64,000 nt of DNA from positions 1 to 64,000 of the forward strand of contig JAGLGM010000002.1 in the NCBI GenBank assembly GCA_023144035.1, in the 5' to 3' direction. The notes beneath the pieces are model-generated. The model had not been told where the DNA came from and did no database searches. It saw only the letters and a program-made list of their open reading frames with translations. Each line of letters opens with the position of its first letter. Within the stretch, counting starts at the first letter, position 1. This stretch comes from Candidatus Pacearchaeota archaeon (lineage in GTDB: Archaea > Nanobdellota > Nanobdellia > Pacearchaeales > GW2011-AR1). Below are positions 23,741 through 59,176 of this stretch, piece by piece. Position numbers and translations under genes: made by a program.

Positions 23741-24694
23741 TGTATAGCCTACAGACATATGTCGTAGGTTAAAATAACAACTTAAAATCATGATAAATTT
23801 CGTCAGGAGTTTTTCCATCTAAACTTGTATGTGGTCTAAAATGATTATATCTCATTCTCCAAAGTTCAGGATCACTATTACAAAAAGGAAACTCTTTCTT
23901 AAAAGTTTGAAATAATCTTTCAACTTTCCCACATGTAGTTGGACTATGAACAGCACTTCTAATGTGATTTATTTCTCTTTTTCTACACCATCTATCAAAT
24001 TTTGAATGTTTACTTTTTAAGCCATATGCTGAACCATTATCAGATAAAATTTCTCTAGGTTTTCCATAAATTTTAATTAAATCATCTAAAATTTTGGTTA
24101 CAACTTCTGTTGTAACTATATTTGTTGGAGTAAATACTAAACTTTTTCTTGAACAATCATCAATAACAGAAATAACATATTTATCCTTTATCTTTTGATC
24201 ACTATGATCAATTTGCCAAAGAGAATTTGGATGTTTCCTTTGCCACCTAATATATTTTATTCTCTTCTTTTTTCTTTCAGGAGGGTTTGTTAATTTGTAT
24301 TTTCTTAAAATTTTACTGATACTTTTATGAGAAATTCCTAATTTAAGATCTTCAATCTTTCTTTCTCCCCATCCAGTTTGCTTTTTAATTGAAATTATCT
24401 TTTCCTCAAGTTCTTTAGTTATTTTTCTGTGAATTGTTTTAGGCCTTTTTGATTTATCTTTTAAATCCCAATTAGAATCATAATCTAATTTATGCATCCA
24501 TCTTTGTAAAGTTCTAGTATGTGTTTCATATTCATATTTTGCAAGAAGTATTTTTCTACATTGTGAATATGAATGGTTTTTTAATTTAAGTTTAAAAAAT
24601 TCTTTTCTTATTTCCTCTTTTTTCATACAATTTACATGTTTTCACATGCAAACTAATTTTCGGTTCTTACGACATATGTCTGGTGGTCGCACAC
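23741..24694. mobile_element. IS481-like insertion sequence
   Basis: The element is about 954 bp, bounded by imperfect inverted repeats that start TGT: the left end TGTATAGCCTACAGACATAT matches the inverted right end TGTGCGACCACCAGACATAT, both continuing GTCGTA. It is flanked by a 15-bp direct duplication. One transposase gene fills it. The right boundary may be one base shorter. The insertion is at the 3' end of tRNA-Leu and the duplication keeps that tRNA intact. Confidence 0.88.
23769..24626 (-). CDS. IS481-family DDE transposase
   Basis: The 285-residue protein has N-terminal helix-turn-helix modules (about residues 1-115) and an integrase core with Asp140 (WQIDHS), Asp196 (LSDNGSAY) and Glu236 (GKVERLF). 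All three catalytic acids are present and the frame is intact, so the element may still be mobile. It cuts and rejoins the terminal inverted repeats. Confidence 0.9.
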   Translation of the reverse strand: MKKEEIRKEFFKLKLKNHSYSQCRKILLAKYEYETHTRTLQRWMHKLDYDSNWDLKDKSKRPKTIHRKITKELEEKIISIKKQTGWGERKIEDLKLGISHKSISKILRKYKLTNPPERKKKRIKYIRWQRKHPNSLWQIDHSDQKIKDKYVISVIDDCSRKSLVFTPTNIVTTEVVTKILDDLIKIYGKPREILSDNGSAYGLKSKHSKFDRWCRKREINHIRSAVHSPTTCGKVERLFQTFKKEFPFCNSDPELWRMRYNHFRPHTSLDGKTPDEIYHDFKLLF

Positions 24695-32950: not shown

Positions 32951-33127
32951 ATGAAGATTATAAAAATTAAAGGAGAAACAAATCTTAAAATTAATAATAT
33001 AAAAGGATTTTTGAAAAGAAGGGTCAAACCTTTTGGCACAAGTGCACGTGTTGATTGCCCTAAGGAGTTTTTAGGAGAAGAAGTATATCTTGTGATTCTT
33101 GGAAGAGAATATGATAAAAAAAAATGA
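32951..33127 (+). CDS. DUF2080-family (transposon-associated) small protein
   Basis: A 58-residue protein encoded from ATG 32951: start MKIIKIKGE and the family-like segment GFLKRRVKPFGTSARVDCPK, then EFLGEEVYLVIL. DUF2080 proteins typically accompany transposases or homing endonucleases. Its 3' end overlaps the start of the homing endonuclease gene by 17 bp, in another frame, so they form a cassette. Too short to appear in a standard long-ORF list. Confidence 0.75.
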   Translation: MKIIKIKGETNLKINNIKGFLKRRVKPFGTSARVDCPKEFLGEEVYLVILGREYDKKK

Positions 33128-33896
33128 AAATACAGCAGAATTAGTAGGTTTAAGTTTTGGCGATGGAGGTCTAACCTATAGAAAAAATAGTAATAGAGTT
33201 AAATTTCAATTAAGAGGCCATTTAATAGAAGATAAAGAACATTATGATTCTTATATTATTCCTTTGTTTAATAGAGAGGTCATGGTTCCTCTATTTTCAA
33301 GGAAGGTAGGGATAGTTTTTAATAAGAGAACAAAATTTTATGGTCTTTCTGTAGAAAGTGTGAATATAGAATTTCCTTTAAATTTTATAGGAATCCCAAG
33401 CGGAGTGAAAAATGAGCTTTCAATCCCTAAATGGATTAAACAAGATAGAAAATATCTGCGAAGGTTTTTGAGAGGTTTCTTAGATACAGATGGGTGCATT
33501 TTTTGCCAAAAGAATTATTCTATCAAAAATAATAAGTTCCACACCCAAATAAGAATTCATTTATCTTGTACATCAGAGAATTTAATGAAAGAAATATATA
33601 GGATGTTGAAATCAATGGATTTTAAAACTCTAATTTATTCCCAAGAACCATGTGGAAATGGTAAAAGAAAATCCTATGTTGTTAAAATTTGTGGAGGGAT
33701 ACAAGTATATAAATGGATGGAAGAGATAGGTTCCAAGAATCCAAAACATATAACAAAATATCTTATCTGGAAGAAACTGGGATTTTGTCCGCCATATACT
33801 TCTTTAAATGAAAGAAAGAAAATACTTAAAAAAGAAGAAAATCCTTTTCTTTATTATGAAGCGAGGTTGCCAGAGAGGTCAAATGGGAGTGGTTAA
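33111..33896 (+). CDS. LAGLIDADG homing endonuclease
   Basis: The 261-residue protein (from MIKKNENT) has two motifs, LVGLSFGDGGL and FLRGFLDTDGCIF, with acidic residues retained. It overlaps the DUF2080 gene at its 5' end, and its last ~12 codons run into the tRNA-Leu gene at 33861, ending with a stop inside it (33894-33896). The C-terminus RLPERSNGSG is thus a translation of tRNA sequence and probably not a family feature. It may have inserted immediately upstream of the tRNA. Confidence 0.82.
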   Translation: MIKKNENTAELVGLSFGDGGLTYRKNSNRVKFQLRGHLIEDKEHYDSYIIPLFNREVMVPLFSRKVGIVFNKRTKFYGLSVESVNIEFPLNFIGIPSGVKNELSIPKWIKQDRKYLRRFLRGFLDTDGCIFCQKNYSIKNNKFHTQIRIHLSCTSENLMKEIYRMLKSMDFKTLIYSQEPCGNGKRKSYVVKICGGIQVYKWMEEIGSKNPKHITKYLIWKKLGFCPPYTSLNERKKILKKEENPFLYYEARLPERSNGSG

Positions 33897-36676: not shown

Positions 36677-37141
36677 ATGCTTCCTAAACATCACCTTTTT
36701 TTAGGTTTTCTTTTTTCTTTATTTTTATTTATAATCTTTCCCAAAATAGGGATAATTGGATTCTTATTGATAATAATTTCAAGTGTATTAATGGACTTTG
36801 ATCATTATCTTTATTATGTTTTTAATAAAAAAGATTTAAGTTTGAAAAATGCCTATAATTGGTTTTACAAGAGACATAAAAAACTTATGCTTTTATCTAA
36901 AAATAAGCGAAATAAAATTTATACAGAAATTTATTTTCTTCATGGAGGGGAATTTTTATTAATTTTATTTGTTTTAGGAGTTTATATTTCAAAATACTTT
37001 TTTTACATTTTAATAGGATGTGCTTTTCATTTATTTTTAGACATAATTCATCAAAGAAAGATTCATGATAGATTAGATAGAATTTCATTAATCCATGATT
37101 TTTTAAAGTTTAGGAAATTAAGAAAGTTATGGATTTTATAA
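36677..37141 (+). CDS. YdjM/DUF457-like membrane protein (metal-dependent hydrolase-like)
   Basis: The 154-residue protein has four or so membrane segments. His/Asp patterns (KHHLFLGF, VLMDFDHYLYY, FLHGGEFL and AFHLFLDIIHQ) resemble the YdjM/DUF457 group of membrane-bound metal-dependent hydrolases. It starts directly after the secD stop and its end overlaps the flippase gene by 13 bp, so transcription is likely shared. Confidence 0.65.
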   Translation: MLPKHHLFLGFLFSLFLFIIFPKIGIIGFLLIIISSVLMDFDHYLYYVFNKKDLSLKNAYNWFYKRHKKLMLLSKNKRNKIYTEIYFLHGGEFLLILFVLGVYISKYFFYILIGCAFHLFLDIIHQRKIHDRLDRISLIHDFLKFRKLRKLWIL

Positions 37142-38487
37142 GACAAGAAAGAGAGGATTTTAGAAATCTCTTTAAAAGAGTTAAAAGAAGAGATTTTAGT
37201 GGAACAGGAGGACAAATAATAAAAAATTCTAGTTATCAATTAACAACAAATATTGTTTCAAAAGTTGGAGCCTTAATCTTTACTGCTATAATTGCAAGAT
37301 TATTACTTCCAGATTTATTTGGTTTATATTCTCTTGCACTAGGTACAATTGTCTTTTTTGCCGCTTTTACTGATATGGGGCTTGATTCTGCAATGGTTGC
37401 TTTTCTCTCAAAGCTTTTAGGGAAAAATAAAGAAAAAAAAGCAAAATCTTATTTTAATTATTTATCAAATATAAAAATTATTTTAATTTTATTAGTTTCT
37501 TTAATTTTATTATTGTCTGCTTATTTTATTGCAAATAATTATTATAATAAACCAATCTTTTTTGCGTTAATTGCAGGAGGATTATATATTCCTTTATCCA
37601 CCTTTTCAAGGTTTATTGAGACATTGTATTTAGCAAATAATAATTTCAAATTTCCCATGTTCAAAGAAATTATATTTCAGCTAGTTAGATTTTTGATTAT
37701 ACCTTTAGTGATATTCTTACTATTTAAGACAACTATTTCCGGAGAAAAAGTAATTGCTATCTTAATTTTAGGTTTAAGTTTTTCTTATTTTATTTCATTA
37801 ATTTATCTTTGGACAAAAGCAAAGAAAACCATGCCATTTTTAAAATTAAAAGAAAAGAGATTACTTAAAAACGAAAAAGAGAAGATAAAAAAGTTTACAC
37901 TTCCTTTAGCTGCAATTGTTTTGTCTGGAGTATTTTTTGGATATATTGATATGTTAATGTTAGGACATTTTGTTACAGGAGAATTTGTAGGTTATTATGG
38001 AGCTACTTTTTCTTTAATAGGTTCTGCCACAGTTATTTTGAGTTTTATGGCAACAGCTCTTTTTCCTATTTTTGTAAGAACTTCAGGGAAAAAATTAAAT
38101 TTACTTTTTAAAAGAATGGCCACAATATCAACTACAATTTCTTTATTAGCAGTTATTTTTACTTTTTTTGCAGCAAAATATATAATTATCATAATCTATG
38201 GTTCAGAGTATCTTCAAGCGATAATATTTTTAAAATACTTTTCAGTATTGCTTTTAGTTGGGACCTTAATAGGGCTTCATAGTACTTATTTTGTTTCTCA
38301 AGAAAAGACAAGGAAATATTCTTATTTACTTATTACCACTACTTTTTTAAATATAATTTTAAATTATCTCCTTATTACAAATGGATTAAAAATAGGGATG
38401 CAAGAAGCTGTTCTTGGAGCTTGTACAGCGACAATTATTAGTAGATTTGTTTTTTTAGGGTTATTAGCTTTCTTTAGAAAAAGATAA
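37129..38487 (+). CDS. Polysaccharide/lipid-linked oligosaccharide flippase (Wzx/MATE-like)
   Basis: The 452-residue protein has 12-14 predicted membrane helices after a basic cytoplasmic N-terminus. The segment TTNIVSKVGALIFTAIIARLLLPDLFGLYSL is the Wzx-type N-terminal signature region (shown from residue ~40). It would move a lipid-linked glycan across the membrane for the oligosaccharyltransferase at 60343. It opens the surface-glycan region. Confidence 0.88.
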   Translation: MDFIRQEREDFRNLFKRVKRRDFSGTGGQIIKNSSYQLTTNIVSKVGALIFTAIIARLLLPDLFGLYSLALGTIVFFAAFTDMGLDSAMVAFLSKLLGKNKEKKAKSYFNYLSNIKIILILLVSLILLLSAYFIANNYYNKPIFFALIAGGLYIPLSTFSRFIETLYLANNNFKFPMFKEIIFQLVRFLIIPLVIFLLFKTTISGEKVIAILILGLSFSYFISLIYLWTKAKKTMPFLKLKEKRLLKNEKEKIKKFTLPLAAIVLSGVFFGYIDMLMLGHFVTGEFVGYYGATFSLIGSATVILSFMATALFPIFVRTSGKKLNLLFKRMATISTTISLLAVIFTFFAAKYIIIIIYGSEYLQAIIFLKYFSVLLLVGTLIGLHSTYFVSQEKTRKYSYLLITTTFLNIILNYLLITNGLKIGMQEAVLGACTATIISRFVFLGLLAFFRKR

Positions 38488-39453: not shown

Positions 39454-40599
39454 TTATTTTAATGATTCTTCATAAATTTTTCTCATTTTTTTATTTCGTT
39501 TTTCTATACTAAATTTACCTTTTGTAACTTTTTTAAATCCCTCTTCCCCCATTTTTTTTCTTTTGGACTCATTATCTAGAAGATATTTGACAGCATTTCT
39601 TATGTTTAATGAATTTTTTTGAACATCTTTTTTTATTTTAATAATAGTTTTTTGAGATGTAATTGGAATATTAAATTTATCCATGATTTTTGTTTCAGGT
39701 TTGATTAACAAACCAGATTTTGAATCAACATATTCTTTATTTGCCCAAGAATCATAAGTAATTATGGGAAGCTTAAAAAACATAGCAATTAAAAACATCA
39801 TGGCTGGAGTAGCATAACAAGGTTGTAAAAATATTTTAGATTTATTTAATAATTCATAAAGTTTTTTTAAAGGAATAACTTCTTTCACAATAATATTTTT
39901 ATATTTCTTTATTTTTATCGAAGAAGGAACTTGTCCCAAATAAATAAATTTTGTTCTAGGAAATTCTTTAGCTAATTTTTCAAAGGCAAAAAGAGTTTCA
40001 TACCCTCCTTTTATATAAAAAGAAATGTCATTTTTAATATTACTAGATCCTCCAAAAATAACTATTTCTTCCTTTTCAACTTTTTTTCTTTCATTTTCAG
40101 GAATAAAAGTAACAGGGTAAAGGACTTTTTGATTTACTTTTAAATTAGAATCTTTAAAATATAATTTAAAAGATTTTAAGGCTTCATTATGGATAGGTAA
40201 TAGAAATTTTAAGTTTTTCTGAGATAATAATTTTTCCCCTTCTTTTTTAGCTTTTTCATTATAAAAATCACTTCTTATAAAAGGACTAACATGTTCATAA
40301 TCCATTACAAATGGTTTATTTGTTTTCCCAATATGGTTTGCAAAATGTATTAAGTCGACATTTTTCTCTTTTCTTAGAGAATCTTTAACCTTTCTTTCAA
40401 AACCAGGAAAGATTTTATTTAAAGGAGTTTTTAGAAATTTATACATTGTCCTTAGAGGGGAATAAGTTCTTTTACTTATTCCTTTAAATTTGGCTTTGCT
40501 GTAGATAATTTTTTGAGGAGGATATTCAAAATAAGAATTATAAAGAGAATGAAATTTCTTGGTAATTTTATAATCAAATAAAACTTTTATTTTTTTCAT
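39454..40599 (-). CDS. Glycosyltransferase, GT4-like
   Basis: The 381-residue protein has a GT-B layout: an N-terminal domain with a short DLIHFANHIGK part, and a C-terminal domain with IVIFGGSSNIKN, FIYLGQVPSS, KSKIFLQPCYATPAMMFLIA and KEYVDSKSGLLI, the donor-binding helix region of family GT4. It is similar in architecture to the gene at 42033. Donor and acceptor unknown. Its ATG overlaps the stop of the upstream methyltransferase gene. Confidence 0.8.
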   Translation of the reverse strand: MKKIKVLFDYKITKKFHSLYNSYFEYPPQKIIYSKAKFKGISKRTYSPLRTMYKFLKTPLNKIFPGFERKVKDSLRKEKNVDLIHFANHIGKTNKPFVMDYEHVSPFIRSDFYNEKAKKEGEKLLSQKNLKFLLPIHNEALKSFKLYFKDSNLKVNQKVLYPVTFIPENERKKVEKEEIVIFGGSSNIKNDISFYIKGGYETLFAFEKLAKEFPRTKFIYLGQVPSSIKIKKYKNIIVKEVIPLKKLYELLNKSKIFLQPCYATPAMMFLIAMFFKLPIITYDSWANKEYVDSKSGLLIKPETKIMDKFNIPITSQKTIIKIKKDVQKNSLNIRNAVKYLLDNESKRKKMGEEGFKKVTKGKFSIEKRNKKMRKIYEESLK

Positions 40600-41168
40600 C
40601 TTTTAATTATCCACCAATCTCTCCTGTCTCCAAAAAAAACTTGTAAATTTCTTTTTTTAACAAATTCTATTAAAGCATCACTAACTCCTGAATATTGTAT
40701 GTCATGTCCTGAAATTATCCCTCTTTTTTTTATTTTGTTCCAATATAATTCTAAATCTTTTTTAACATACTCATATTCGTGATTCCCATCTATATATAAG
40801 AAATCTAAGAAATTATCTGGGATTTTTACATAAGCCTTATCAGACAATTCTTCTATCCAAAGATTTGTTTTACCCCATTTTTTATTTCTTTTACGGGCCT
40901 TTTTTTTAGCATCATTTAATGCAGGAATAATTTTATCTCTTTTATAATCTTCATATCTTTCATAAGGATCTATAAGGAAAAATTTTTTTATGTTTAATTT
41001 TTTATTCATCCAATAAGAATTTCTCCCTTGAAAAACTCCAATTTCTGCAGCAACTATTGGATTATTTTTAAAATAAACCATGGCAAATTTAACAGCTTCT
41101 TTTGGATTTTCACTTTTTATTTCTAAATTAAAATTTTTATTAATAAAATTTAAGAGTTTTGAAATCAT
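40596..41168 (-). CDS. Class I SAM-dependent methyltransferase (Methyltransf_24-like)
   Basis: The 190-residue protein has motif I VAAEIGVFQGRNS, a FFLIDPYER acidic loop and motif DFLYIDGNHEYEYVKKDLEL. The DGNHEY form is typical of the Methyltransf_24 subgroup often found in glycan clusters. The likely target is a sugar hydroxyl, by context. It lies in a leftward run with glycosyltransferases. Confidence 0.82.
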   Translation of the reverse strand: MISKLLNFINKNFNLEIKSENPKEAVKFAMVYFKNNPIVAAEIGVFQGRNSYWMNKKLNIKKFFLIDPYERYEDYKRDKIIPALNDAKKKARKRNKKWGKTNLWIEELSDKAYVKIPDNFLDFLYIDGNHEYEYVKKDLELYWNKIKKRGIISGHDIQYSGVSDALIEFVKKRNLQVFFGDRRDWWIIKR

Positions 41169-41199: not shown

Positions 41200-42036
41200 T
41201 TAAAGATTTCTAAGTTTTCTTTTTAGTTTTCCTCTAAGGGTATAAAATCTCAATAAGACTCCAAAGAATAATAAATCAATGAATAATACTTTAAATTTTT
41301 TATTTTTAATTAAATAATTTATTAATTCTCTTTTATTATATTTTCCAACATAAACTCCTTGATTCCATTTTTGTATCTCTTTTTGATACAATCCACTTAT
41401 ATATGCTACTTTTAATCTTGCTTTAAGAGAATATTTGTGAGAATGATAAACAATTGATTTAGGTTCATAAATTATTTTCCATCCTTTTTTTTCTACTGCT
41501 TTAGCCCATTTTTGATCTTCACCTCCAATATATTGGTAAGGGATTTTTTCATCATATTTATTTTTCTCCCAAACACTTTTTTTTATAGCTCCACTTGCAT
41601 TAGAGAAAAAAGCACAAGATTTTTCACGTGCAGGAAACATTTTTTTTGTTTTAAATTCTTCTACAGGATTAAAATTCTTAATTGGTTCTTGTTTTCCAAA
41701 GACTCCTGCCACTTTTTTATATTTGAAGTGTTTAATTATGTTGTATGCCCAAAATTCATCTTTAGGGATTATATCTACAGAAACATAAAAAATAATATCT
41801 CCTTTTGATTTTTCAGCCCCTAAGTTAAAAGTATAAGCATGACTAAAATCTTTAGGATTTACATTAACAACTCTACATCCATAATTTTTTGCAATTTCGA
41901 CAGTTCCATCTTTTGAAGAAGAATCTATAACAACAATTTCAAAATATTTGAACCTTTTTTGATGAGATATTTTATTCAATAATCTTTTAAGTAATTGAGA
42001 ATGATTGTACGTTCTTATTACAATAGAGGTTTTCAT
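41200..42036 (-). CDS. Glycosyltransferase, GT2
   Basis: The 278-residue protein has the GT-A fold pattern: SIVIRTYNHSQLLKRLL, VVIDSSSKDGT, an aspartate motif FYVSVDIIP in place of DxD, and a GGEDQKWAK acceptor loop (ED in the catalytic region). The C-terminus is basic. It ends 31 bp before the methyltransferase ATG. Confidence 0.85.
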   Translation of the reverse strand: MKTSIVIRTYNHSQLLKRLLNKISHQKRFKYFEIVVIDSSSKDGTVEIAKNYGCRVVNVNPKDFSHAYTFNLGAEKSKGDIIFYVSVDIIPKDEFWAYNIIKHFKYKKVAGVFGKQEPIKNFNPVEEFKTKKMFPAREKSCAFFSNASGAIKKSVWEKNKYDEKIPYQYIGGEDQKWAKAVEKKGWKIIYEPKSIVYHSHKYSLKARLKVAYISGLYQKEIQKWNQGVYVGKYNKRELINYLIKNKKFKVLFIDLLFFGVLLRFYTLRGKLKRKLRNL

Positions 42037-43175
42037 TTTAAATTAGTAGCCTCTCCATATATTTTTTCTAGTTTTTTATTTCTTTCTTTAATAGAGAATT
42101 TACCTTCTGAAATTTCATTATATCCTGCCTCTCCCATTTTTCTTCTTAATGAAGAATCTTTTAGAAGAATAACCACTTTCTCTGCTAATTCAGATACATA
42201 TTTTTCATCATAAAAATCTCTTAATTTATCAAAGTATCTTCCAGCAGGATAAAGAGGTTGAAAGTTTTTATCATGCCATTTAAAAGGATGATTTACTATA
42301 AATCCATTTACACAATCTTTTACAATTTCAGGAGCTGAGAAAATATCTCCCGCTACAATAGGTACCTTATAGTTCATTGCATCAAAAAAAGCATTACCCA
42401 ATGATTCTAGATTAGTTGGATAAAGAAAAATATCTGCTTTTTTATAGAGCTCTCTCCAATTAGAAGAAACATATTCTTCAGTATCTGAGAATTCTATATT
42501 CTTTTTCCCTTCATATTTCTTTTTTAGTTTTTCTGGAACAGGTCCTCTCATAATTAACTTAAATTCTATTTTTCCATCTAATTTATCAAAAACTTGAAGC
42601 ACAGTATTACCTCCTTTTTCCCAAAATCTTCTTCCTACCCATAAAATTATTGGAACTTTATTGCTTTGCTTTTCAAAATTTGGAATTGATTTTTTCCCTG
42701 GATAAATAACTTCCATTTTAGATTTTAAATGTCCTAAACCTCCACTTACTAAGGAAAGTTTGGAAGCAATTGTATGAGGCATTAATTTTTTACAATACTT
42801 TGAAGAAAGAGTTTTATTTACTTTAGAAAAATAACCTTTTCTTTTAACATTAGAAACATCCATCCCAAAAATACCTTCTAAATGTTCAACATCCATTACC
42901 CATGGAGTTTTACCTGAGTTCATGAGGTTGTTTGTAGAATGAATTATATCACAACCACGAGGGTCTATTTTTATTACAGGAGGTCTATTTTTAAGAGACA
43001 ATACCCATAATTTTACTTTTAATTTGTGAAGGAGGCTAACTTTTTGAGTAGAAGAAGTTAATATCTTTTCATATTTGTAAATTATGTCTTTTGGAGGATA
43101 ATTAATATAATCATAATATCCTGGATGAGGTCTTTTTCCTAGCCTTAAGAATACTTTTATCTTTTCCATTTTCAT
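42033..43175 (-). CDS. Glycosyltransferase, GT4
   Basis: The 380-residue protein (possible start at the second Met, 43169) has a GT-B layout with ILWVGRRFWEKGGNTVLQVF, FKLIMRGPVPEK and the C-terminal donor site ADIFLYPTNLESLGNAFFDA, in which the usual EX7E pattern is visible. It resembles the 39454 gene in its N-terminal part. It ends overlapping the GT2 start. Confidence 0.86.
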   Translation of the reverse strand: MKMEKIKVFLRLGKRPHPGYYDYINYPPKDIIYKYEKILTSSTQKVSLLHKLKVKLWVLSLKNRPPVIKIDPRGCDIIHSTNNLMNSGKTPWVMDVEHLEGIFGMDVSNVKRKGYFSKVNKTLSSKYCKKLMPHTIASKLSLVSGGLGHLKSKMEVIYPGKKSIPNFEKQSNKVPIILWVGRRFWEKGGNTVLQVFDKLDGKIEFKLIMRGPVPEKLKKKYEGKKNIEFSDTEEYVSSNWRELYKKADIFLYPTNLESLGNAFFDAMNYKVPIVAGDIFSAPEIVKDCVNGFIVNHPFKWHDKNFQPLYPAGRYFDKLRDFYDEKYVSELAEKVVILLKDSSLRRKMGEAGYNEISEGKFSIKERNKKLEKIYGEATNLK

Positions 43176-43199: not shown

Positions 43200-44063
43200 T
43201 TAGTTATTTCTATACGCGTTTGCACTATTTTCAAATTCTTTCAAAGTATAAAGGGTCATAGGATGATTAATTGTGTTACTTAAAGAAATTGTGTTGCCAA
43301 ATTTTCTTCCCAAATTTTTTAATTCCTCTATTTTCCCTAAATTCTTAACTATTTTTGAAGGAATTGTTATAACTTGAGGACTTGCTGAAGCTATTTTATA
43401 AATATCTTCAGGAGATCTTATACTTCCAATTATTAATTCACATTCTGTTTGTTTAGTTTTGTTTGCAACATAAGCTATTTCTTTTAAAGTCATTTCCCAA
43501 GCTGCATCAAAATATTTATCTTTATTTTGTTTTGCAATATCTTTCCAATCTGATTTTTTCAAGACTTCTTCAAGGTTATATCCTGACATTTCTAAAATAT
43601 GTGAATCTAACATACGATTAGCAAACATACTTACATACCCTTTACCATATTTAGTCGCAAGTAATGCTTGATAAGGACTTATACAGGCAGTTATATTTGT
43701 TTTAATATCTTGTTTTTTCAATTCTTCTGCAGCCATTAATCCCCCCATACACATTGGAATTTTGACAATTATATTACTTCCTAAACTTTTTAATTCATAA
43801 GCTTGTTCTAATAAGATATTTTTAATCTTAGAATCTTCTTGTTCTTCAAATTTTTCCATATTTATTCCTCTAAGGTCTGTTTCAAGGCTCACAGGAACAT
43901 GAGGGTATTTATTAACAAGATTTTTACATGCTTCAATAAATCCTTTTGAAAGATCTCCTGTATCTTCCATAATTTTTGGATTTGTGGTGATTCCGTCATC
44001 TACTCCCTTAGAAAAACAATTTTCTATTTCTTCTAAACTTGCTGTATCTGCAAAAAATTTCAT
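43200..44063 (-). CDS. Transaldolase-family protein
   Basis: The 287-residue protein starts MKFFADTASLEEIENC with VDDGITTNPKIM, and has the Schiff-base lysine segment NIIVKIPMCMGG, then NITACISPYQALLA and YVSMFANRM. It is longer than the ~220-residue TalC/fructose-6-phosphate aldolase type, the excess being in the C-terminal half. Transaldolase makes or consumes sedoheptulose 7-phosphate; with GmhA encoded next to it, supplying that precursor is a reasonable inference. Overlaps the gmhA stop. Confidence 0.82.
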   Translation of the reverse strand: MKFFADTASLEEIENCFSKGVDDGITTNPKIMEDTGDLSKGFIEACKNLVNKYPHVPVSLETDLRGINMEKFEEQEDSKIKNILLEQAYELKSLGSNIIVKIPMCMGGLMAAEELKKQDIKTNITACISPYQALLATKYGKGYVSMFANRMLDSHILEMSGYNLEEVLKKSDWKDIAKQNKDKYFDAAWEMTLKEIAYVANKTKQTECELIIGSIRSPEDIYKIASASPQVITIPSKIVKNLGKIEELKNLGRKFGNTISLSNTINHPMTLYTLKEFENSANAYRNN

Positions 44064-44773
44064 TTTTCAACCTTTCCTTGATGTTCTTTAATAACACCTG
44101 TTATTAAATTTTTTATTACAGGGTCTTCACATTTATCTTCTATTTCTTGTAATCTGGTCAATAACGAAAAACCAGTATACTCGTCTATTAATTCCTTAAG
44201 TCTAAATATAACACAATGTTGTAAAACCCCATGAAATCCTTCAACATGAGGTGTAGAATTTTTAGGAACAACAATACAAGAATCTCCAATCTCTTTTATT
44301 TTACCTCCGTTAAATCCTGACAATCCAATTATTTTTGCATTTTTCTTTTTAGCAATTTCCATAGCTTTAATAATATTTCCAGACCATCCACTACCTCCAT
44401 GAACAGAAATTATAAGGATAACATCTCCTTCATCTAAAAGAGTATTTAGTAATCCAGCATATGCATTTTCCCATCCAGAATCATTTATCCAAGCAGTTAA
44501 AGCAGGTTGATTATCATTTAAACAAATTGCTCTAAATCCTTTAACTTCTCTAATTTCCTTTTGACTACTATCATTTACTACTGTTTTTAATAAATCCCCC
44601 ACAAAATGTGAAGCAGTACTAGAACTTCCCCCATTACCCATTGTGATTACTTTTTTCCCTTTTTTCCAAGCTTCAAAAAGAATTTCTATAAAATTATTAA
44701 TTTCGTTTCTATCTATATTTTGTATTATTTCTTTTGTCTCTTCCAAATATTTATCAATAAAATCTTTACTCAT
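44060..44773 (-). CDS. gmhA: Sedoheptulose 7-phosphate isomerase (SIS domain)
   Basis: The 237-residue protein has the SIS-fold signature VITMGNGGSSSTASHFVGDL and the C-terminal VPKNSTPHVEGFHGVLQHCV, as in GmhA. GmhA converts sedoheptulose 7-phosphate to D-glycero-D-manno-heptose 7-phosphate. It is coupled to the HddA-like kinase gene (4-bp overlap), which supports the heptose assignment over a generic SIS sugar isomerase. Confidence 0.85.
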   Translation of the reverse strand: MSKDFIDKYLEETKEIIQNIDRNEINNFIEILFEAWKKGKKVITMGNGGSSSTASHFVGDLLKTVVNDSSQKEIREVKGFRAICLNDNQPALTAWINDSGWENAYAGLLNTLLDEGDVILIISVHGGSGWSGNIIKAMEIAKKKNAKIIGLSGFNGGKIKEIGDSCIVVPKNSTPHVEGFHGVLQHCVIFRLKELIDEYTGFSLLTRLQEIEDKCEDPVIKNLITGVIKEHQGKVEK

Positions 44774-45759
44774 TTTCCCTGATATATTATTTTACAACCT
44801 TCCTTATCAAAACGAAAAGGCAATTCTTTTAGTCCTGCTTTTTTCATAACCTCTCTTAATTTATTTTTATTAGTTTCACAATAAAATAAAATAAATCCTC
44901 CGCCTCCTGCACCAACTAATTTTCCTCCAAGAGCCCCATTTTTAATTCCTAATTCATAAATAGAATCAATTTTATTTGAAGTCATATTTTTAGAAAACTT
45001 TCTTTTAGATTCCCAATGAACATTTAACCATCTCCCTATTTTTTGAGTATTTCCTTTTTCAAGAGCATTTTTTATTTCTTTTCCGACATCTTTTATAAAA
45101 TGCATTTGTTTCATTTTTTCTTCATCAGATTCAAGATCTTCTTTTTGTTCATGAAGAATCTTAGTTGCAGAACGTTTTAATCCTGTACTAAAAAGTAAAA
45201 GGTTATTTTCTAATTCTTCTAAAGTAGTATAAGAGGCATCAATGCTATTGACAAGTACCTTGCCATTTTTCTCTATTTCTAAGTTTAATATATCTCCAAA
45301 AGAGGCCATATATTGATCTTGTTTTCCTATAGGTTCTTTTAAAATATTCATTTCTATATCTGCAGCTTCTTCAGCTAATTTTTTATTAGATATGTCTTCT
45401 TTTTTATATGCATGAAGAGCTTTTAATAAAGCAACTAAAAAAGAGCTAGAGGTTCCTAAACCAGTTCCTGCTGGAACATCAGCTAAAGAAGTTATTTCTA
45501 AAGGATTATTATTAATTTTTAAATATTTTAATGCTGCTTTAACACGGGTATGAATAATATCATCTACTTTTTTTACAGACTCATTTTCAGAATAACGGAT
45601 AAGAAATTTGTCATAGAAATTTCTCTTTTCAAGGATTATATAAATATATTTGTCAATAGCTACAGAAATCATAGATCCTCCAAATCTTGAAGAGTAAAAA
45701 GGTAAATCAGTACCTCCTCCACCAAGAGAGATTCTTAAGGGTGCTCTTACAATAATCAT
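44770..45759 (-). CDS. hddA: D-glycero-alpha-D-manno-heptose 7-phosphate kinase (GHMP family)
   Basis: The 329-residue protein has the GHMP start RAPLRISLGGGGTDLPFYSS, the ATP loop PAGTGLGTSSSFLVALL and the C-terminal KLVGAGGGGFILFYC. This is the HddA type, which phosphorylates heptose 7-phosphate at C1 in the GDP-heptose pathway. Neighbours GmhA and the HddC-GmhB fusion support it. Fucokinase-like or galactokinase-like relatives are the main alternative. Confidence 0.85.
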   Translation of the reverse strand: MIIVRAPLRISLGGGGTDLPFYSSRFGGSMISVAIDKYIYIILEKRNFYDKFLIRYSENESVKKVDDIIHTRVKAALKYLKINNNPLEITSLADVPAGTGLGTSSSFLVALLKALHAYKKEDISNKKLAEEAADIEMNILKEPIGKQDQYMASFGDILNLEIEKNGKVLVNSIDASYTTLEELENNLLLFSTGLKRSATKILHEQKEDLESDEEKMKQMHFIKDVGKEIKNALEKGNTQKIGRWLNVHWESKRKFSKNMTSNKIDSIYELGIKNGALGGKLVGAGGGGFILFYCETNKNKLREVMKKAGLKELPFRFDKEGCKIIYQGK

Positions 45760-45837
45760 AAACTATTTAGAAGAAATATCTTTATAAATATTTTCCTTAT
45801 AAAGCTTGTGCAGAAATCTTTATAAAGAGATAATTTA

Positions 45838-47187
45838 CTACTTTTTCCCTAATTTTCTTATTTCTTCAGCAACCTCTATTAAATTTGGCGAAGTAAAGTC
45901 AGGAAAAATACCTGCTTTATGTTGTAATTCAAGAATATCTAATCTTGGAATGCCTATTCTAAATGTTTTTTTAACATGTGCATTTTGTCCAGTTTGAATA
46001 TCACTTAAACTGTCTCCGACAAAATAAGAATTTTTAACATCAATCTTAAAATCTTTTTTTGCTTTTTCAATTAAGCCTATCTTTGGTTTTCTACAATCAC
46101 ATTCTCCTGTAAGCCTAGGATGATGGGGACAACAATAAATTTCATCTATTTTTAATTCTTTTTTTAGAAATTCATTAATCTCTTTTAATTTATTTTCATT
46201 GACATAGCCAAACGCAACACCTGGTTGATTTGTAATTACAATAATTCTAAAACCCATTTCTTTAAATTTTTGAATGCCTTCTTTAACATTATCAATTATT
46301 TTTACTTGATTGATTGTTGCAGGAGACATAATTTTTCCATCAACTTTATAAATATTTTCATTAATTACTCCATCTCTATCTAAAAAAATAGCTTTATTTT
46401 CATGAAAGTCGAAATTTTCTTGTTTTTTTGTTATTTCTGGTTTTAAATATGGCAAAGAAAATTGTTTTGATTCTAGCTCATTTTTACATAATTCATATTT
46501 TTCTATTTTTCCAATTTCTCTAAAATAATATTCATCTATCATAAATGCATATATCCTTTCTCCAATAGTTAATAAATGTGGGAAAATATCTTTAGCAAAA
46601 TCTGAAAATCCTTTAGGAATATAATTTAAAATTTTTGGACTGCAAACATATAACCCTGAATTTGAAAGATAAAATTCTTTACATAATTCATGAAAAAGTT
46701 CATCAGAGGGTTTTTCTACAAATTTTGTAACTTGCAAATCTGAATTTGTAAACAAAAAACTTGCAGGAGGTTTTGATATTGGTTTTTTTCTTAAAGCAGT
46801 TGTTATAATTCCTCCTTTTGATTTATGATATTTCATAAATTTTGTTAAATCAATATCAGTAATACTGTCTCCATAAATTACAAAAAAATCATCATCTTTT
46901 AATAAATCTTTAAAATTATTTAATGCTCCTGATGTTCCAAGCATCTCTGGTTCGTATGAAAAATAAAGTTTAACACCCCATTTTTCTCCTGTGCCAAAGT
47001 ATTGTTTAATTTTATCAGGAAGGTAGGATGTATTTATTGCTATTTCATTTATTCCATGATTTTTACATAATAAAATAAGATATTCTAATACTGGTTTTTT
47101 CATTATGGGAATCATTGGTTTTGGAAGTGTGTCTGTTAAGGGGCGAAGTCTTTCTCCCCTTCCTGCTGCCAAAATTATTGCTTTCAT
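45838..47187 (-). CDS. Fused heptose-1-phosphate guanylyltransferase (HddC-like) and heptose bisphosphatase (GmhB-like)
   Basis: The 449-residue protein joins a nucleotidyltransferase (residues 1-~240: ILAAGRGERLRPLTDTLPKP, then MLGTSGAL and FVIYGDSI) to a HAD phosphatase (from ~264: FLDRDGVIN with Asp270 and Asp272, then VITNQPG and a zinc site CPHHP...CDCRKP typical of GmhB). GmhB removes the 7-phosphate and HddC activates the product with GTP. The fusion of consecutive steps in one polypeptide supports the pathway. The gene lies 78 bp upstream of hddA. Confidence 0.85.
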   Translation of the reverse strand: MKAIILAAGRGERLRPLTDTLPKPMIPIMKKPVLEYLILLCKNHGINEIAINTSYLPDKIKQYFGTGEKWGVKLYFSYEPEMLGTSGALNNFKDLLKDDDFFVIYGDSITDIDLTKFMKYHKSKGGIITTALRKKPISKPPASFLFTNSDLQVTKFVEKPSDELFHELCKEFYLSNSGLYVCSPKILNYIPKGFSDFAKDIFPHLLTIGERIYAFMIDEYYFREIGKIEKYELCKNELESKQFSLPYLKPEITKKQENFDFHENKAIFLDRDGVINENIYKVDGKIMSPATINQVKIIDNVKEGIQKFKEMGFRIIVITNQPGVAFGYVNENKLKEINEFLKKELKIDEIYCCPHHPRLTGECDCRKPKIGLIEKAKKDFKIDVKNSYFVGDSLSDIQTGQNAHVKKTFRIGIPRLDILELQHKAGIFPDFTSPNLIEVAEEIRKLGKK

Positions 47188-47237: not shown

Positions 47238-48719
47238 ATGAAAAATCTTAAAGGTTTACTTATTTATCCTCCTGCTCAGTTAATGAAACAAGAAAGAGCA
47301 CGACCAGATGGATCTCTTGGTTTAATTTATTTAGCTTCTTCTTTAGAATCAAAAGGAATAGAAACAGATATTTTAGATGCTTCTGTTGGGGTTGCTGAAC
47401 ACAATATACAAAACACTTTTTATAATCCTATCAAACAAGAAAACGGGCTTGTTAGAATTGGAATGGAATTTGAAGATATTGCAAATTATATTAAAAAGAA
47501 AAATTATAATTTTGTAGGAATTAATTCTAATCTTACACCTCAAACAAGAATGGCTTTTGAAACAGCAAAAGCAATTAAACAATTAAACCCAAAAATTCCA
47601 ATTTATGCTGGAGGAGTAAATGCAAGAGCACTAAACAAAAGATTTTTAGAAACAGGACATTTTGATGCGATTTGTTTAACAGAAGGAGAAATTATCTTTC
47701 CAAGAGCAATAATTGAAGGAGTTGAAAATGTTTCTGGTTTTGCATATAAAGATAAAAACGGAAAAATAAAAGTTAATCAAGTAGATGAAACTTGTTTTCC
47801 AGAAAATTTAGATGATTTACCAATACCTGCTTGGGAAAAATTACCCTTAGATAAATATGGGCAAATAGCTTCTCCTCATGGTGTAGATGTTACTGGAAAG
47901 AGTAACCATAGATATGCTCCAATAATGACTTCGAGAGGGTGTGTTTGGCATTGTACCTTTTGTCATATATCCACAGAAAAAGAAAATATTGGAAAATTAA
48001 GAACACATTCAATTGAGAGGGTTTTAGAGGAGATGAATGGATTAAAATCTTTAGGAATAGAAAAACTCTTTTTTGAAGACGACACTCTTTTAACAAGAAA
48101 AAAAAGAGCTAAAGAAATTTTTTCAAAAGCTAGAGAAAAAGAGTTTTTAATAGCAAATGTTAATGGAGTGAATTTAATTGATTTTTATAATAAAAAAGAC
48201 TGGAGTATTGATATAGAGTATTTAGAAATATTAAAACAAGCAGGATATGAACAAATAGTTTTTCCTGCAGAATCTGGATCTCAAAGAATTTTAGATAAAT
48301 ATGCTTCAGGGAAAGTAAAATTAGAAAAAATGGATTTACCTGTTTTAATGAAAACAATGGTAAATATGGGAATCAAAGCTCCAGTAAATATGATTATTGG
48401 ATTTCCAGATGAAACTGAAGAAGAAATACAAAAAACAATAGATTTAGGGAAAAAACTAAAAGAAAATGGAGCACCCTATGTAAGTTTTTTTCTTCCAATT
48501 CCTTTTCCAGGGTCTAAACTTTATGATATTGCAATTAAAGGAAATTATTTAAATAGAGATTTTAATCCAGATATGATGAATTGGAAAAGAGCAATAATGA
48601 CAAATACTTTTGTTCCTCCTAAAAGGCTGGAAGAAATAAGAGATTATGCAAATGAATTAGTTAATGATAAGGATTTTATTAAAAGAGCAGTACAAAATAC
48701 TATTGGATATAAATTATAA
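47238..48719 (+). CDS. Cobalamin-binding radical SAM protein
   Basis: The 493-residue protein has an N-terminal B12-binding-like Rossmann region (residues ~1-170, with YLASSLESKGIETDILDAS) and a radical SAM core with the CxxxCxxC motif in RGCVWHCTFCHIS. SPASM/B12 radical SAM enzymes methylate or rearrange unactivated carbons; in glycan clusters they may methylate a sugar or lipid carrier. The substrate cannot be told. It is divergent from the GmhB fusion gene. Confidence 0.85.
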   Translation: MKNLKGLLIYPPAQLMKQERARPDGSLGLIYLASSLESKGIETDILDASVGVAEHNIQNTFYNPIKQENGLVRIGMEFEDIANYIKKKNYNFVGINSNLTPQTRMAFETAKAIKQLNPKIPIYAGGVNARALNKRFLETGHFDAICLTEGEIIFPRAIIEGVENVSGFAYKDKNGKIKVNQVDETCFPENLDDLPIPAWEKLPLDKYGQIASPHGVDVTGKSNHRYAPIMTSRGCVWHCTFCHISTEKENIGKLRTHSIERVLEEMNGLKSLGIEKLFFEDDTLLTRKKRAKEIFSKAREKEFLIANVNGVNLIDFYNKKDWSIDIEYLEILKQAGYEQIVFPAESGSQRILDKYASGKVKLEKMDLPVLMKTMVNMGIKAPVNMIIGFPDETEEEIQKTIDLGKKLKENGAPYVSFFLPIPFPGSKLYDIAIKGNYLNRDFNPDMMNWKRAIMTNTFVPPKRLEEIRDYANELVNDKDFIKRAVQNTIGYKL

Positions 48720-49827: not shown

Positions 49828-51150
49828 TTATTTTAATTTAGAAAGAGAAGATTTACTCTCTTTTAATTTTTTTAGACCCTCTCTTTTAATTTCTTCTTCA
49901 GATTTTAAAATAGGCCCTCCCCATTTTCTTTTAATAATCCATTCTCTAAAATCTAGTTCCAATTCTTTAAATTCTTCTTTAGTTAGAGATTCTGTTTCTA
50001 TATTTGCACCACCAGAAAAGGTTTTATCTACTTGATAATAATTATCAAAATCTTTATTTATGTGAGTAATTCCATATTTTTCAGGATGTTTCCAAACATC
50101 TGTTCCTGGATAAGGAACAAAATTACTTATAAAAAATTGATCTGGATTTGTTTCTTCTATAAATCTTTTAGTCTCTTCTATTGTTTCTTTTGTTTCCCCT
50201 GGAAAACCTAAAATAAAAAAAGATCTAGAAGTAATTCCTGCTTCTTTAGCCCATTTAATTACATCTTTATTATCTTGTACTGTAGATTTTTTATTCATTT
50301 TATCAAGTATTTTTTGAGAACCGCTTTCAATACCCCATGCAAGCATGTCACAACCTGCTTCTTTTAATCTAAAAAAATCTTCTTGATTATTTATTCCTGC
50401 TCTTCCAAAAGCTCTAAATCCTATATCTAATGGTTTAAATAAATCTAACATGGCATACAATCTTTTTCTATCTATTGTAAATATATCGTCTTGAAAATTA
50501 TATTTTTTTATACCATATTTTTCTTTCAATCCTTTTATCTCTTCTGCAACTGATTCTGGAGATCTTTTTTTAACTGTTTGATGAGATTTATCTAAACCAC
50601 AAAAAGAACAACTATAAGGACAACCTCTTGAAGTAAGAAGAGTTAGAGAAGTTTCTCCCCCAATAGTTCTTTTATAACTAAAAGGATCAATTAAATGATA
50701 TGCTGGATTAGGATATAAATCTAATTTTTTTTCTAATGCTTTTTGATAATATCTTTTATTATTTGGAAAATCTTTTAATATATCTAAGAATGCCAATTCT
50801 CCTTCGCCAATCACAATTATGTCAAAAAGAGAACTCATTTCTCTTGGAGCTTCTGTAGGGTGAGCACCTCCTACCACAATTTTTGCAGAAGGGTTTTTTT
50901 CTTTACAAATTTTAGCAATATTTTCTGAGATTTTAATAGAAGGGACATAAGTTGTTATCCCATAAACATTTGCTGAACCAATTTGCCAATCTTCTTGAGA
51001 TATGCCTGATAAATCATTAACTTTTACAGAATAACCTTCTTTTTCTAATGTTGATGCAATATATAAGAGACCTAAGGGTGCATCAAGTTTGTCTTCAAGC
51101 CCTTCTGGATGAGGAGGGTGTATTAATTCTATACTTAAATTTTTTATCAT
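49828..51150 (-). CDS. Cobalamin-binding radical SAM protein
   Basis: From MIKNLSIE (51150, ATG overlapping the previous stop) the protein is about 440 residues. An N-terminal B12-binding-like region (LYIASTLEKEGYSVKVNDLS; ...VVGGAHPTEAPREM) is followed by the radical SAM motif RGCPYSCSFCGLD and the GIESGSQKILDKMNK and ILGFPGETKETIEET segments. It is a second enzyme of the same broad class as the 47238 gene, on the opposite strand. Substrate unknown. Confidence 0.85.
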   Translation of the reverse strand: MIKNLSIELIHPPHPEGLEDKLDAPLGLLYIASTLEKEGYSVKVNDLSGISQEDWQIGSANVYGITTYVPSIKISENIAKICKEKNPSAKIVVGGAHPTEAPREMSSLFDIIVIGEGELAFLDILKDFPNNKRYYQKALEKKLDLYPNPAYHLIDPFSYKRTIGGETSLTLLTSRGCPYSCSFCGLDKSHQTVKKRSPESVAEEIKGLKEKYGIKKYNFQDDIFTIDRKRLYAMLDLFKPLDIGFRAFGRAGINNQEDFFRLKEAGCDMLAWGIESGSQKILDKMNKKSTVQDNKDVIKWAKEAGITSRSFFILGFPGETKETIEETKRFIEETNPDQFFISNFVPYPGTDVWKHPEKYGITHINKDFDNYYQVDKTFSGGANIETESLTKEEFKELELDFREWIIKRKWGGPILKSEEEIKREGLKKLKESKSSLSKLK

Positions 51151-52061
51151 ATCTTTTCCCATGAATTTCTTTCTTTTCTTTTCAAAGAGATTTCTTTTAA
51201 ATTTTTTATATTTTCTCGGTACGCCTTAATAAGTAATCTTGATTTTTCAAAAGGATTTTTACTTAAAATTGCTGAACCAAAATGCATTATGGTGTGCTTT
51301 AAAATATTAAAAAAATCAAAATTAAGCCATTCAAATCTGATTCCATGTTTTTTTTGAAGAAACCATTTTCCTCCATCATGTTTAAGGTTTTTTATAGAAG
51401 CACTTCCATGGTGAATTAATTTTATATTTCCCACATAAATAATTTTAAATCCTTTTTTCCCAGCTCTATAACAAAAATCTGTTTCTTCCCCATATAATGG
51501 AGAAAATTTTTCATCAAACAAACCAATCTCATTTATAACCTCTTTTTTAATTAAAAAACAAGCACCCATCATGGTTTTAAGTTCCTTGATTTGAAAGGTT
51601 TCTTTTGTTTCTAGAACATCTTGTTTAGTTTTCAAAAATTGTATTTTTCCGTTTTTAAAAAAATATTGTAAATAACCTCCAGGATAAATTAATTTACATC
51701 CAAGAATTCCAATTTTTTTATCAGATTCTGCTACATCAACCATTTTTTTTAACCAATCTTTTTCAATAAATTCTATATCATCATTTGATGAGAGAATATA
51801 ATCTGGAGCATCTTCTTTGAATATTTTTTTTATGCCTTGGTTAATAGTTTTTGAAAATCCTATATTAACTTTATTTATTGAAAGATTAACCCATTTAAAT
51901 TTTTCTTTTATTCTTTTACCAATTTCACCTTTTCCACTATCATCCATAAGGTAAACCTTATAATTTTTATAATTTGTATTCTTCTTCAGAGAAGAAAGAC
52001 ATTTTTTAAGGATTTCTTCTTGATTACATGTTAAAATAATAATTGCAACTTTTTTTTCCAT
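51147..52061 (-). CDS. Glycosyltransferase, GT2
   Basis: The 304-residue protein has IIILTCNQEEILKKCLSSL, YLMDDSGKG, a DxD-like SSNDDIEF and a GEETDFCYRAGKKGF acceptor loop, all typical of GT2 (rhamnosyltransferase-like) enzymes. The C-terminal 70 residues are basic and membrane-associating. It is coupled to the radical SAM gene by an ATGA overlap. Confidence 0.87.
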   Translation of the reverse strand: MEKKVAIIILTCNQEEILKKCLSSLKKNTNYKNYKVYLMDDSGKGEIGKRIKEKFKWVNLSINKVNIGFSKTINQGIKKIFKEDAPDYILSSNDDIEFIEKDWLKKMVDVAESDKKIGILGCKLIYPGGYLQYFFKNGKIQFLKTKQDVLETKETFQIKELKTMMGACFLIKKEVINEIGLFDEKFSPLYGEETDFCYRAGKKGFKIIYVGNIKLIHHGSASIKNLKHDGGKWFLQKKHGIRFEWLNFDFFNILKHTIMHFGSAILSKNPFEKSRLLIKAYRENIKNLKEISLKRKERNSWEKI

Positions 52062-58132: not shown

Positions 58133-59176
58133 ATGAAAAAAGCATTGATAACAGGAATAACAGGGCAAGATGGAAGTTACCTTGCAGAATTTCTCTTAGA
58201 AAAAGGATATGAAGTATATGGAATGTATAGGAGAACAAGTATGGATTCTTTAGGAAGAGTAGGTCATTTAAAAAAACAAATAAAATTAGTAGAAGGAGAT
58301 TTAACAGATATTGGCTCAATGATTAATCTTTTGAAGGAAATAAGGCCAGACGAAGTGTATAATCTTGCAGCACAATCTTTTATTCCAGCATCTTGGACAC
58401 AACCTATCTCAACAGCTGAAATTTCTGGGATGGGTGTTTTAAGATTATTAGAAGCTATAAGACATGTTGATAATAAAATAAAATTTTATCAAGCATCAAC
58501 TTCAGAATTATTTGGGAAAGTAAGAGAAATGCCTCAAACAGAAGAAACCTCTTTTTATCCTAGAAGTCCTTATGCAGTATCAAAAGTATTTGGACATTTT
58601 ATAACAAAAAATTATCGAGAGAGTTATAATCTGTTTGCATGTAGCGGGATTTTGTTTAATCATGAATCGCCTAGAAGAGGAAAACAATTTGTTACTAGGA
58701 AAATAAGCCATTCTGTTGCAAAAATAAAATTAGGATATCAAGATTATTTTGAAATGGGAAATATTGATGCAAAAAGAGATTGGGGATTTGCAGGAGATTA
58801 TGTAGAGGCAATGTGGTTAATGTTGCAACAAGAAAAACCAAATGATTATGTGATTTCTACAGGGGAAACAAAATCTGTAAGAGAATTTATAGAGGAAGCA
58901 TTTAATGTTGTTAATATGCCTATTCAATGGGAAGGAGAAGGCCTAAATGAAGTTGGAAAATATAATGGAAAAGTAGTAATTAAAGTAAATCCTCAATTTT
59001 ACAGGCCAGCAGAAGTACAAATTTTGTTAGGAAATCCAGAAAAAGCAAGAAGAGAATTAGGTTGGGAGTGCAAAACCAAATTTAAGGAGTTAGTTAGGAT
59101 AATGGTTGAAGCAGATTTAAAAGAACTTTCTGAAAGAGGTCTGACAAATAGAGATAAAGGACCTTTAGATTCCTAA
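58133..59176 (+). CDS. gmd: GDP-mannose 4,6-dehydratase homologue (Gmd/DmhA type)
   Basis: The 347-residue protein matches Gmd throughout: GITGQDGSYLAEFLLEKGYE, YRRTSMDSLGRV, NLAAQSFIPASW, catalytic TSELFGKV and YAVSK, NHESPRRGKQFVTRKI and RDWGFAGDYVEAMW. Gmd makes GDP-4-keto-6-deoxymannose; closely related enzymes act instead on GDP-D-glycero-D-manno-heptose. Since the cluster has a GDP-heptose pathway, the substrate is open. It has its own promoter and stands alone, divergent from the GT2 gene at 57990. Confidence 0.93.
   Translation: MKKALITGITGQDGSYLAEFLLEKGYEVYGMYRRTSMDSLGRVGHLKKQIKLVEGDLTDIGSMINLLKEIRPDEVYNLAAQSFIPASWTQPISTAEISGMGVLRLLEAIRHVDNKIKFYQASTSELFGKVREMPQTEETSFYPRSPYAVSKVFGHFITKNYRESYNLFACSGILFNHESPRRGKQFVTRKISHSVAKIKLGYQDYFEMGNIDAKRDWGFAGDYVEAMWLMLQQEKPNDYVISTGETKSVREFIEEAFNVVNMPIQWEGEGLNEVGKYNGKVVIKVNPQFYRPAEVQILLGNPEKARRELGWECKTKFKELVRIMVEADLKELSERGLTNRDKGPLDS

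Follow-up and report, generated by a model that had tools for sequence, protein, structure and literature searches.

An operon with its own transaldolase in a Pacearchaeota glycan cluster, a candidate route to an activated higher-carbon aldose

The window analyzed here is the whole stretch of 64,000 nucleotides at positions 1 to 64,000 of contig JAGLGM010000002.1, from a Candidatus Pacearchaeota archaeon whose genome comprises 776 kb in 15 contigs and is 91% complete. At 43200-47187 it carries four minus-strand genes, all intact open reading frames (ORFs), which together form a candidate module for the synthesis of a nucleotide-activated sugar. The first encodes a fusion protein (45838-47187, 449 amino acids) of a nucleotidyltransferase domain and a GmhB-like phosphatase domain, and is followed by the genes for an HddA-like GHMP sugar-1-kinase (44770-45759, 329 amino acids), a GmhA-like ketose-phosphate isomerase (44060-44773, 237 amino acids) and a transaldolase (43200-44063, 287 amino acids). 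Overlaps of 4 nucleotides join the kinase gene to the isomerase gene and the latter to the transaldolase gene. An initial annotation had described GmhA, HddA and an HddC-GmhB fusion encoded together, which was confirmed with family E-values far beyond chance. The transaldolase, the fourth gene of the span, was absent from that description.

The kinase matched the HddA family NF049969 best (E = 2.1e-55), with 188.5 bits against an equivalog cut-off of 600. Its best match in the PDB was the heptose kinase 3k85 (E = 8.9e-47), compared with E = 4.8e-19 for fucokinase. Enzymes of fucose or mannose type, which the initial annotation had named as the finding that would speak against heptose, are therefore not favoured on the side of the kinase, which is nearest to solved heptose kinases, while the nucleotidyltransferase is ambiguous in this respect. 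The latter domain, of HddC/ManC/LmbO-like type, occupies residues 1-250 of the fusion (46438-47187, minus strand), where residues 2-238 match NTP_transferase PF00483 (E = 2.3e-40, 139 bits). It matched families for mannose 1-phosphate, glucose 1-phosphate, N-acetylmuramate 1-phosphate and heptose 1-phosphate, each under its cut-off, and reached 90 of the 300 bits of the HddC equivalog. The phosphatase domain of haloacid dehalogenase (HAD) type occupies residues 264-449 (45838-46398, minus strand), with a match to GmhB NF006506 over residues 263-407 (E = 2e-38) of 131.7 bits against a cut-off of 178. Its sequence contains DRDG and CPHH...CDC, which we take to be the motifs of GmhB-like phosphatases.

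The isomerase belongs to PF13580 and matched the GmhA family TIGR00441 with E = 4.5e-27 and 95 bits, below the equivalog cut-off of 209.45. Its AlphaFold model matches solved GmhA structures, of which 2xbl is the nearest (template modelling scores of 0.69/0.84). Alignments revealed a rebuilt phosphate loop, SVHGGSGWSGN, at residues 123-133 (44375-44407, minus strand). This loop is the marker of an isomerase subgroup in which SVHGG...WSxN replaces the usual xSGxS and is longer. The residues of the usual SxSGxS loop of GmhA presumably bind phosphate. Two positions mutated in solved Burkholderia GmhA structures also differ in the window isomerase, D61 being replaced by T and Q175 by E. Scores against TIGR00441 lay between 86 and 95 bits for the window isomerase and four other loop-bearing isomerases, compared with 109-204 bits for five of six usual-loop isomerases and 235 for the sixth. 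In a tree of 99 rows, the alignment of which included the loop columns, 33 usual-loop rows formed one side of a branch with support of 93 in the Shimodaira-Hasegawa-like approximate likelihood-ratio test (SH-aLRT). The three closest relatives in public contigs came from Pacearchaeota, Nanoarchaeota and Marinamargulisbacteria records. As a separate observation, a Marinamargulisbacteria contig with the module (L074) encodes an isomerase 68% identical to that of the window and placed inside the archaeal clade, which may reflect either transfer or mis-binning. From sequence, all four heptose-type parts can thus be assigned at superfamily level. Because the curated NCBIfam equivalog scores that were tested all fell below their cut-offs, the module is not classed as a member of the GDP (guanosine diphosphate)-heptose pathway.

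The transaldolase was assigned to PF00923 (E = 4.5e-29), with 102 bits against a family cut-off of 27, and is the single match to that family in the window genome. Its AlphaFold model has a predicted local distance difference test (pLDDT) value of 93, and the nearest PDB folds are transaldolases. Among 12 aligned module members D6, N28, E61, K101, N123, T125, S145, F147, R150, S214 and R216 are invariant, which we take to be the catalytic lysine and glutamate, the active-site phenylalanine and the phosphate-binding residues of transaldolase. A fructose-6-phosphate aldolase was rejected on the basis of E61 and F147, presumably residues of transaldolase type. Fifty module transaldolases were separated from 30 archaeal housekeeping transaldolases by one branch with SH-aLRT support of 100. 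In this tree and in the residue count the window protein lacked its first 28 residues, which had been trimmed off, the protein of L089 was partial and that of L104 was cut from a fusion, and the housekeeping rows all came from the phylum of the window. Next to catalytic residues, three hydrophobic positions commonly differ from those of the archaeal housekeeping enzymes (L to A or C, F to M or L, and P to L, I or V). Within the transaldolase/fructose-6-phosphate aldolase family, the module enzyme keeps what we assume to be the catalytic residues and differs by its own clade. Divergent transaldolases of two further genomes (G010 and G265) were excluded, their stretches being without isomerase or kinase.

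The association between the transaldolase and the isomerase loop was analyzed in public genomes, which were scanned with seven module isomerases, and the best 80 of at least 546 relatives were taken by similarity. Of these loci 76 yielded an isomerase ORF, the four without a GmhA ORF match being left out, and each locus was classified by its best isomerase match only. Gene counts per locus are lower bounds, since genes were missed by the ORF filter in GC-rich loci (L105, L122 and L133) and at contig ends. The loop was SVHGG...WSxN in 62 loci, partial in two and usual in 12. A transaldolase was present in 52 of the 62 loop-bearing loci, compared with none of the 12 usual-loop and neither of the two partial-loop loci. 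Where a kinase was found the values were 45 of 51 for loop-bearing and 0 of 10 for usual-loop loci. The gap between isomerase and transaldolase genes was at most 1 kb in 46 of the 49 loci in which it was measured, and all five activities were present in at least 33 of the 62. These best 80 loci range over DPANN groups, Thaumarchaeota and an Asgard archaeon, as well as Candidate Phyla Radiation (CPR) groups, Chloroflexota, Zixibacteria, Omnitrophota and other bacteria. In the Nealsonbacteria locus L104 the isomerase and the transaldolase are fused in one protein of 441 amino acids (7995-9320), and that genome has no transketolase match. The two loci with a partial loop, of planctomycete and verrucomicrobial origin (L144 and L146), have SVHGG without the W and no transaldolase nearby; their isomerases are possible intermediates.

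A corresponding pattern was observed in the 279 genomes of the window's own phylum, 77 of which contain GmhA-like proteins, at 85 places. Loops were read at 30 of these places (8 special, 21 usual, 1 neither). According to position tables compared by eye, a transaldolase lies within 5 kb of all eight special-loop isomerases, versus within 6 kb at 1 of the 77 other places. The single exception is G221, where the transaldolase is beside the transketolase gene. No transaldolase accompanied the six usual-loop isomerases with a kinase on the same contig. In each of the six nearest relatives within the phylum, kinase, isomerase and transaldolase occupy one 3.6-kb locus, with phosphatase and nucleotidyltransferase nearby, separate or fused. 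The transaldolase is thus a conserved part of the loop-type module. Furthermore, both isomerase types occur together in the Dehalococcoidia locus L133, in which a special-loop isomerase with its module transaldolase is accompanied by a second isomerase with the usual loop and by two kinases of HddA type, and in G064, within one 20-kb stretch. The co-occurrence of two isomerases within a single locus suggests that there are two substrates and parallel sugar pathways.

Carrier genomes were subsequently compared for the supply of substrates, using 49 of the 52 transaldolase-bearing loci and the window genome (n = 50; the genomes reached through loci come without completeness values). A housekeeping transaldolase merely located in a glycan operon, serving the pentose phosphate pathway while the module makes heptose, would agree with the single transaldolase match in 23 of the 50 carriers, including the window genome. 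This explanation is nevertheless very improbable. Two or more transaldolase matches, their kinds not sorted and some of them fragments, occur in the other 27 carriers, and the in-locus enzyme recurs across domains and phyla as a distinct clade, with the fusion in L104. Moreover, in the window genome a transaldolase without transketolase would serve no ordinary pentose phosphate pathway. Transketolase (PF00456) had no match there or in four further carriers, namely the close relatives G279 and G281 (the G161 record), the Asgard genome G288, and G306, and phosphoketolase was not found in the window genome at its 91% completeness. With neither a transketolase nor a phosphoketolase found, the window genome offers no evident supply of sedoheptulose 7-phosphate; likewise, the lack of a transketolase match leaves the five carriers with no evident erythrose 4-phosphate. 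Phosphoketolase as a source of erythrose 4-phosphate received no support either, as it matched in 1 of 7 module genomes, partially and inside the transketolase place of G064. Among the five carriers RpiA was found in one, RpiB in none and phosphoribosyl pyrophosphate (PRPP) synthetase in two. PRPP synthetase occurs in both G279 and G288, and RpiA in G288 as well, so that these two genomes appear to show signs of ribose 5-phosphate but not of erythrose 4-phosphate.

It is proposed that the operon encodes a self-contained pathway, primed by its transaldolase, whose activated product is a higher-carbon aldose and most probably an octose; to this reading we attach about an even chance. From these genes and their analogues we infer the acceptor, the chain length, the step order, the nucleotide and the glycan type as follows. 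With fructose 6-phosphate as donor and ribose 5-phosphate as acceptor, the transaldolase would transfer a three-carbon dihydroxyacetone unit in the first step and form octulose 8-phosphate. The loop-variant GmhA would convert this to octose 8-phosphate, after which the HddA-like kinase would place a phosphate on C1 and the GmhB-like domain would remove the terminal phosphate. Finally, the fused nucleotidyltransferase would yield a nucleoside diphosphate-octose. The base is ambiguous from the sequence, and GDP is suggested by analogy. Glycosyltransferases, a flippase and AglB of the same cluster would then incorporate the sugar into a glycan of the cell surface, which may be an N-glycan.

To our knowledge, GDP-activated octoses are known only from lincosamide antibiotics. 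PMC4351081 describes the lincomycin octose route with LmbR, LmbN, LmbK and LmbO demonstrated, LmbP predicted and GDP-octose as the product. According to PMC5854111, LmbR joins fructose 6-phosphate or sedoheptulose 7-phosphate to ribose 5-phosphate, and in PMC12945683 GDP-octose is then modified by LmbM, LmbL, CcbZ and CcbS. As described there, the GDP-octose segment of lincomycin and celesticetin biosynthesis comprises the same five activities as the module, including a dedicated transaldolase. The surroundings differ, since the module sits in sugar and glycan clusters of archaea and bacteria, and in the window the phosphatase and nucleotidyltransferase are fused. No antibiotic-type genes were seen in the window cluster. 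The GDP-D-glycero-D-manno-heptose pathway (GmhA, HddA, GmhB, HddC) uses the same superfamilies, with the module kinase nearest to 3k85 and the isomerase nearest to 2xbl; the module differs in its extra, dedicated transaldolase, its rebuilt isomerase loop and its scores below the equivalog cut-offs. Because the transaldolase is conserved in the module and missing from the usual-loop loci with a kinase, the gene set equals that of the GDP-octose rather than the GDP-heptose route. The module would work like the GDP-heptose pathway and, by gene content, like the GDP-octose one.

The competing explanation is a GDP-heptose pathway with its own supply of sedoheptulose 7-phosphate, in which the transaldolase would join fructose 6-phosphate to erythrose 4-phosphate and the product would be GDP-D-glycero-D-manno-heptose. 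It is judged a serious possibility, well short of even. Several observations weigh against the octose, some of them also towards heptose. Erythrose 4-phosphate is the usual acceptor of transaldolase. A transketolase match, over the cut-off in 44 cases, is present in 45 of the 50 carriers, which could thus make erythrose 4-phosphate. The closest named families and folds are those of heptose enzymes, and no octose enzyme is among the nearest PDB matches of the isomerase and the kinase. Little weight can be given to the low GmhA score, as the cut-off is strict and five of the six usual-loop isomerases miss it too, and the exchanges at D61 and Q175 recur in two usual-loop archaeal relatives. The likeness to the lincosamide route was drawn from the described roles of the Lmb proteins rather than their sequences. 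Furthermore, the loci were selected by similarity, the usual-loop loci examined are few, and ten loop-bearing loci, six of them on contigs under 8 kb, have no transaldolase. Both the loop and the transaldolase of the module lie on one branch each, perhaps with a single origin, and the counts are not independent events. In the window genome, G161 and G306, RpiA, RpiB and PRPP synthetase were all missing, leaving no evident source of ribose 5-phosphate.

On the other side, cells with transketolase have sedoheptulose 7-phosphate anyway, as many of the carriers could, and would need no private transaldolase to prime heptose synthesis. Usual-loop loci with a kinase do without a transaldolase (0 of 10), and so do the clusters with usual loops on plasmids of Vibrio alfacsensis and Jannaschia, where a profile search of 16-kb stretches found none. 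Five carriers, the window genome among them, have no transketolase match, and the isomerase has lost the usual phosphate loop, while L133 and G064 keep a usual-loop isomerase beside the special-loop one. The claim in the initial annotation of a complete GDP-heptose pathway is therefore sustained for the linked, heptose-type set of isomerase, kinase, phosphatase and nucleotidyltransferase and for its place in a glycan cluster that also encodes AglB and a flippase. As stated it is not supported, given the overlooked transaldolase, the nonstandard GmhA and the lack of an evident source of sedoheptulose 7-phosphate.

The same chemistry with another product would involve a different acceptor, such as arabinose 5-phosphate or an unphosphorylated aldehyde, an acceptor supplied by a host, or a nucleotide other than GDP. 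It would suit the window genome, which has no evident source of erythrose 4-phosphate or ribose 5-phosphate, and a nucleotidyltransferase that matches several sugar 1-phosphate families under their cut-offs. The conserved R150, R216 and S214, by their assumed role, fit phosphate-bearing substrates instead, and such a product is considered unlikely. Under the octose proposal, the acceptor in the window genome could possibly come from a host or from salvage; little pentose metabolism is visible there, and ribose may be obtained from elsewhere. Phosphoribosyltransferase genes were also observed within or just before the module in other loci, with clear Pfam matches in L108 (7454-7975), L117 (7284-7811) and L131 (7460-7981) and weaker ones in L080 (8655-9104) and L081 (8575-9039). 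They represent a possible tie to PRPP or ribose 5-phosphate.

Among the plasmid matches, of which eight were examined among 160 and 145 records, plasmid pl01 of Lawsonia intracellularis (L161, 7998-16349) carries isomerase, phosphatase, transaldolase, nucleotide-sugar dehydrogenase, short-chain dehydrogenase/reductase (SDR), Gfo/Idh protein, kinase and nucleotidyltransferase together. Its transaldolase scored 199.5 with the module profile versus 107 with the housekeeping profile, and its isomerase loop is a long variant. The dehydrogenase and Gfo/Idh genes echo LmbL and LmbZ, which we take to belong to the dehydrogenase and Gfo/Idh families, respectively. In this intracellular pig bacterium the module genes are annotated merely as SIS protein, transaldolase, galactokinase and the like. 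GmhA matches on plasmids of Streptomyces, Moellerella and Chloroflexota did not represent this module and had no transaldolase by profile, and the Streptomyces match was not a lincosamide cluster. In four Desulfovibrionaceae loci (L126, L132, L136 and L139), the kinase is fused to a usual-loop isomerase, without a transaldolase.

Additional families were counted within 6 kb of the 64 VHGG loci (62 with the full and two with the partial loop). The commonest were SDR epimerase (36 loci), glycosyltransferase-like (24, by eye), Gfo/Idh/MocA (21), short-chain dehydrogenase (18), B12 radical SAM (16) and UDP-glucose-dehydrogenase-like proteins (14). The dehydrogenase, SDR and Gfo/Idh/MocA genes of these relatives are comparable with LmbL, LmbM and LmbZ, whose roles are given in PMC4351081. 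Neither a dehydrogenase nor a Gfo/Idh gene was found among the typed ORFs of the window's own cluster. Two B12-binding radical SAM proteins lie near the module in the window (47238-48719 and 49828-51162), of the kind found near 16 of the 64 loci.

The surroundings of the module resemble archaeal N-glycosylation (Agl) clusters in sharing AglB/STT3, a flippase and glycosyltransferases. A GT4 glycosyltransferase gene (42033-43175, minus strand; PF00534, 80 bits) begins 24 nucleotides downstream of the transaldolase, followed on the same strand by genes for a GT2 glycosyltransferase (41200-42036; PF00535), a methyltransferase (40596-41168; PF13578) and a GT4-like glycosyltransferase (39454-40599; PF13692). 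A Wzx-type flippase is encoded on the plus strand (37129-38487; PF01943, 81 bits), with a counterpart 50% identical near the module in G161. The AglB/STT3 oligosaccharyltransferase (60343-63237, minus strand) matched PF02516 with 56.5 bits (cut-off 24.5) and TIGR04154 with 107.9 bits, under the cut-off of 450. The initial annotation had placed AglB and the flippase beside the heptose genes; both are present, at distances of 13.2 kb and 4.7 kb, respectively, rather than adjacent. A protein of the GDP-mannose 4,6-dehydratase family (58133-59176, plus strand; TIGR01472, 481 bits, cut-off 415), a possible modifier of a GDP-sugar, also lies within the window, in the range of 5-13 kb from the module. 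By this cluster context, the sugar is possibly linked to an N-glycan.

Elsewhere in the window, the gene for the DNA polymerase II large subunit DP2 (6542-11548) is interrupted by an intein with a LAGLIDADG domain. Free-standing ORFs with LAGLIDADG domains occur at 2438-3595 and at 33099-33896, the second adjoining tRNA-Leu, and a gene whose product has an rve core domain, either a transposase or an integrase (23769-24626), adjoins ribosomal-protein genes.

No description of this module was found in the open-licence literature searched, which included passages of PMC5744192, PMC5864196, PMC10072801 and PMC12945683. Octoses are named in Escherichia coli K antigens in PMC10072801. Those are probably 3-deoxy-D-manno-octulosonic acid (Kdo)-type acids from another route. 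In its broader form, to which we give slightly less than an even chance, the proposal would be that GDP-octose for surface glycans is made across domains, in DPANN groups, Thaumarchaeota, an Asgard archaeon, CPR groups, Chloroflexota, Zixibacteria, Omnitrophota and Lawsonia, by means of a dedicated transaldolase and a modified GmhA, with the octose of lincomycin as one offshoot of a far broader kind of sugar. Should heptose be the product instead, the module would still show heptose synthesis primed by a private transaldolase. If GDP-octose is the product, a new class of surface monosaccharide would occur widely in uncultivated archaea and bacteria, many GmhA and HddA annotations in these groups would be one carbon short, and eight-carbon aldoses would be worth seeking in the analysis of archaeal glycans.

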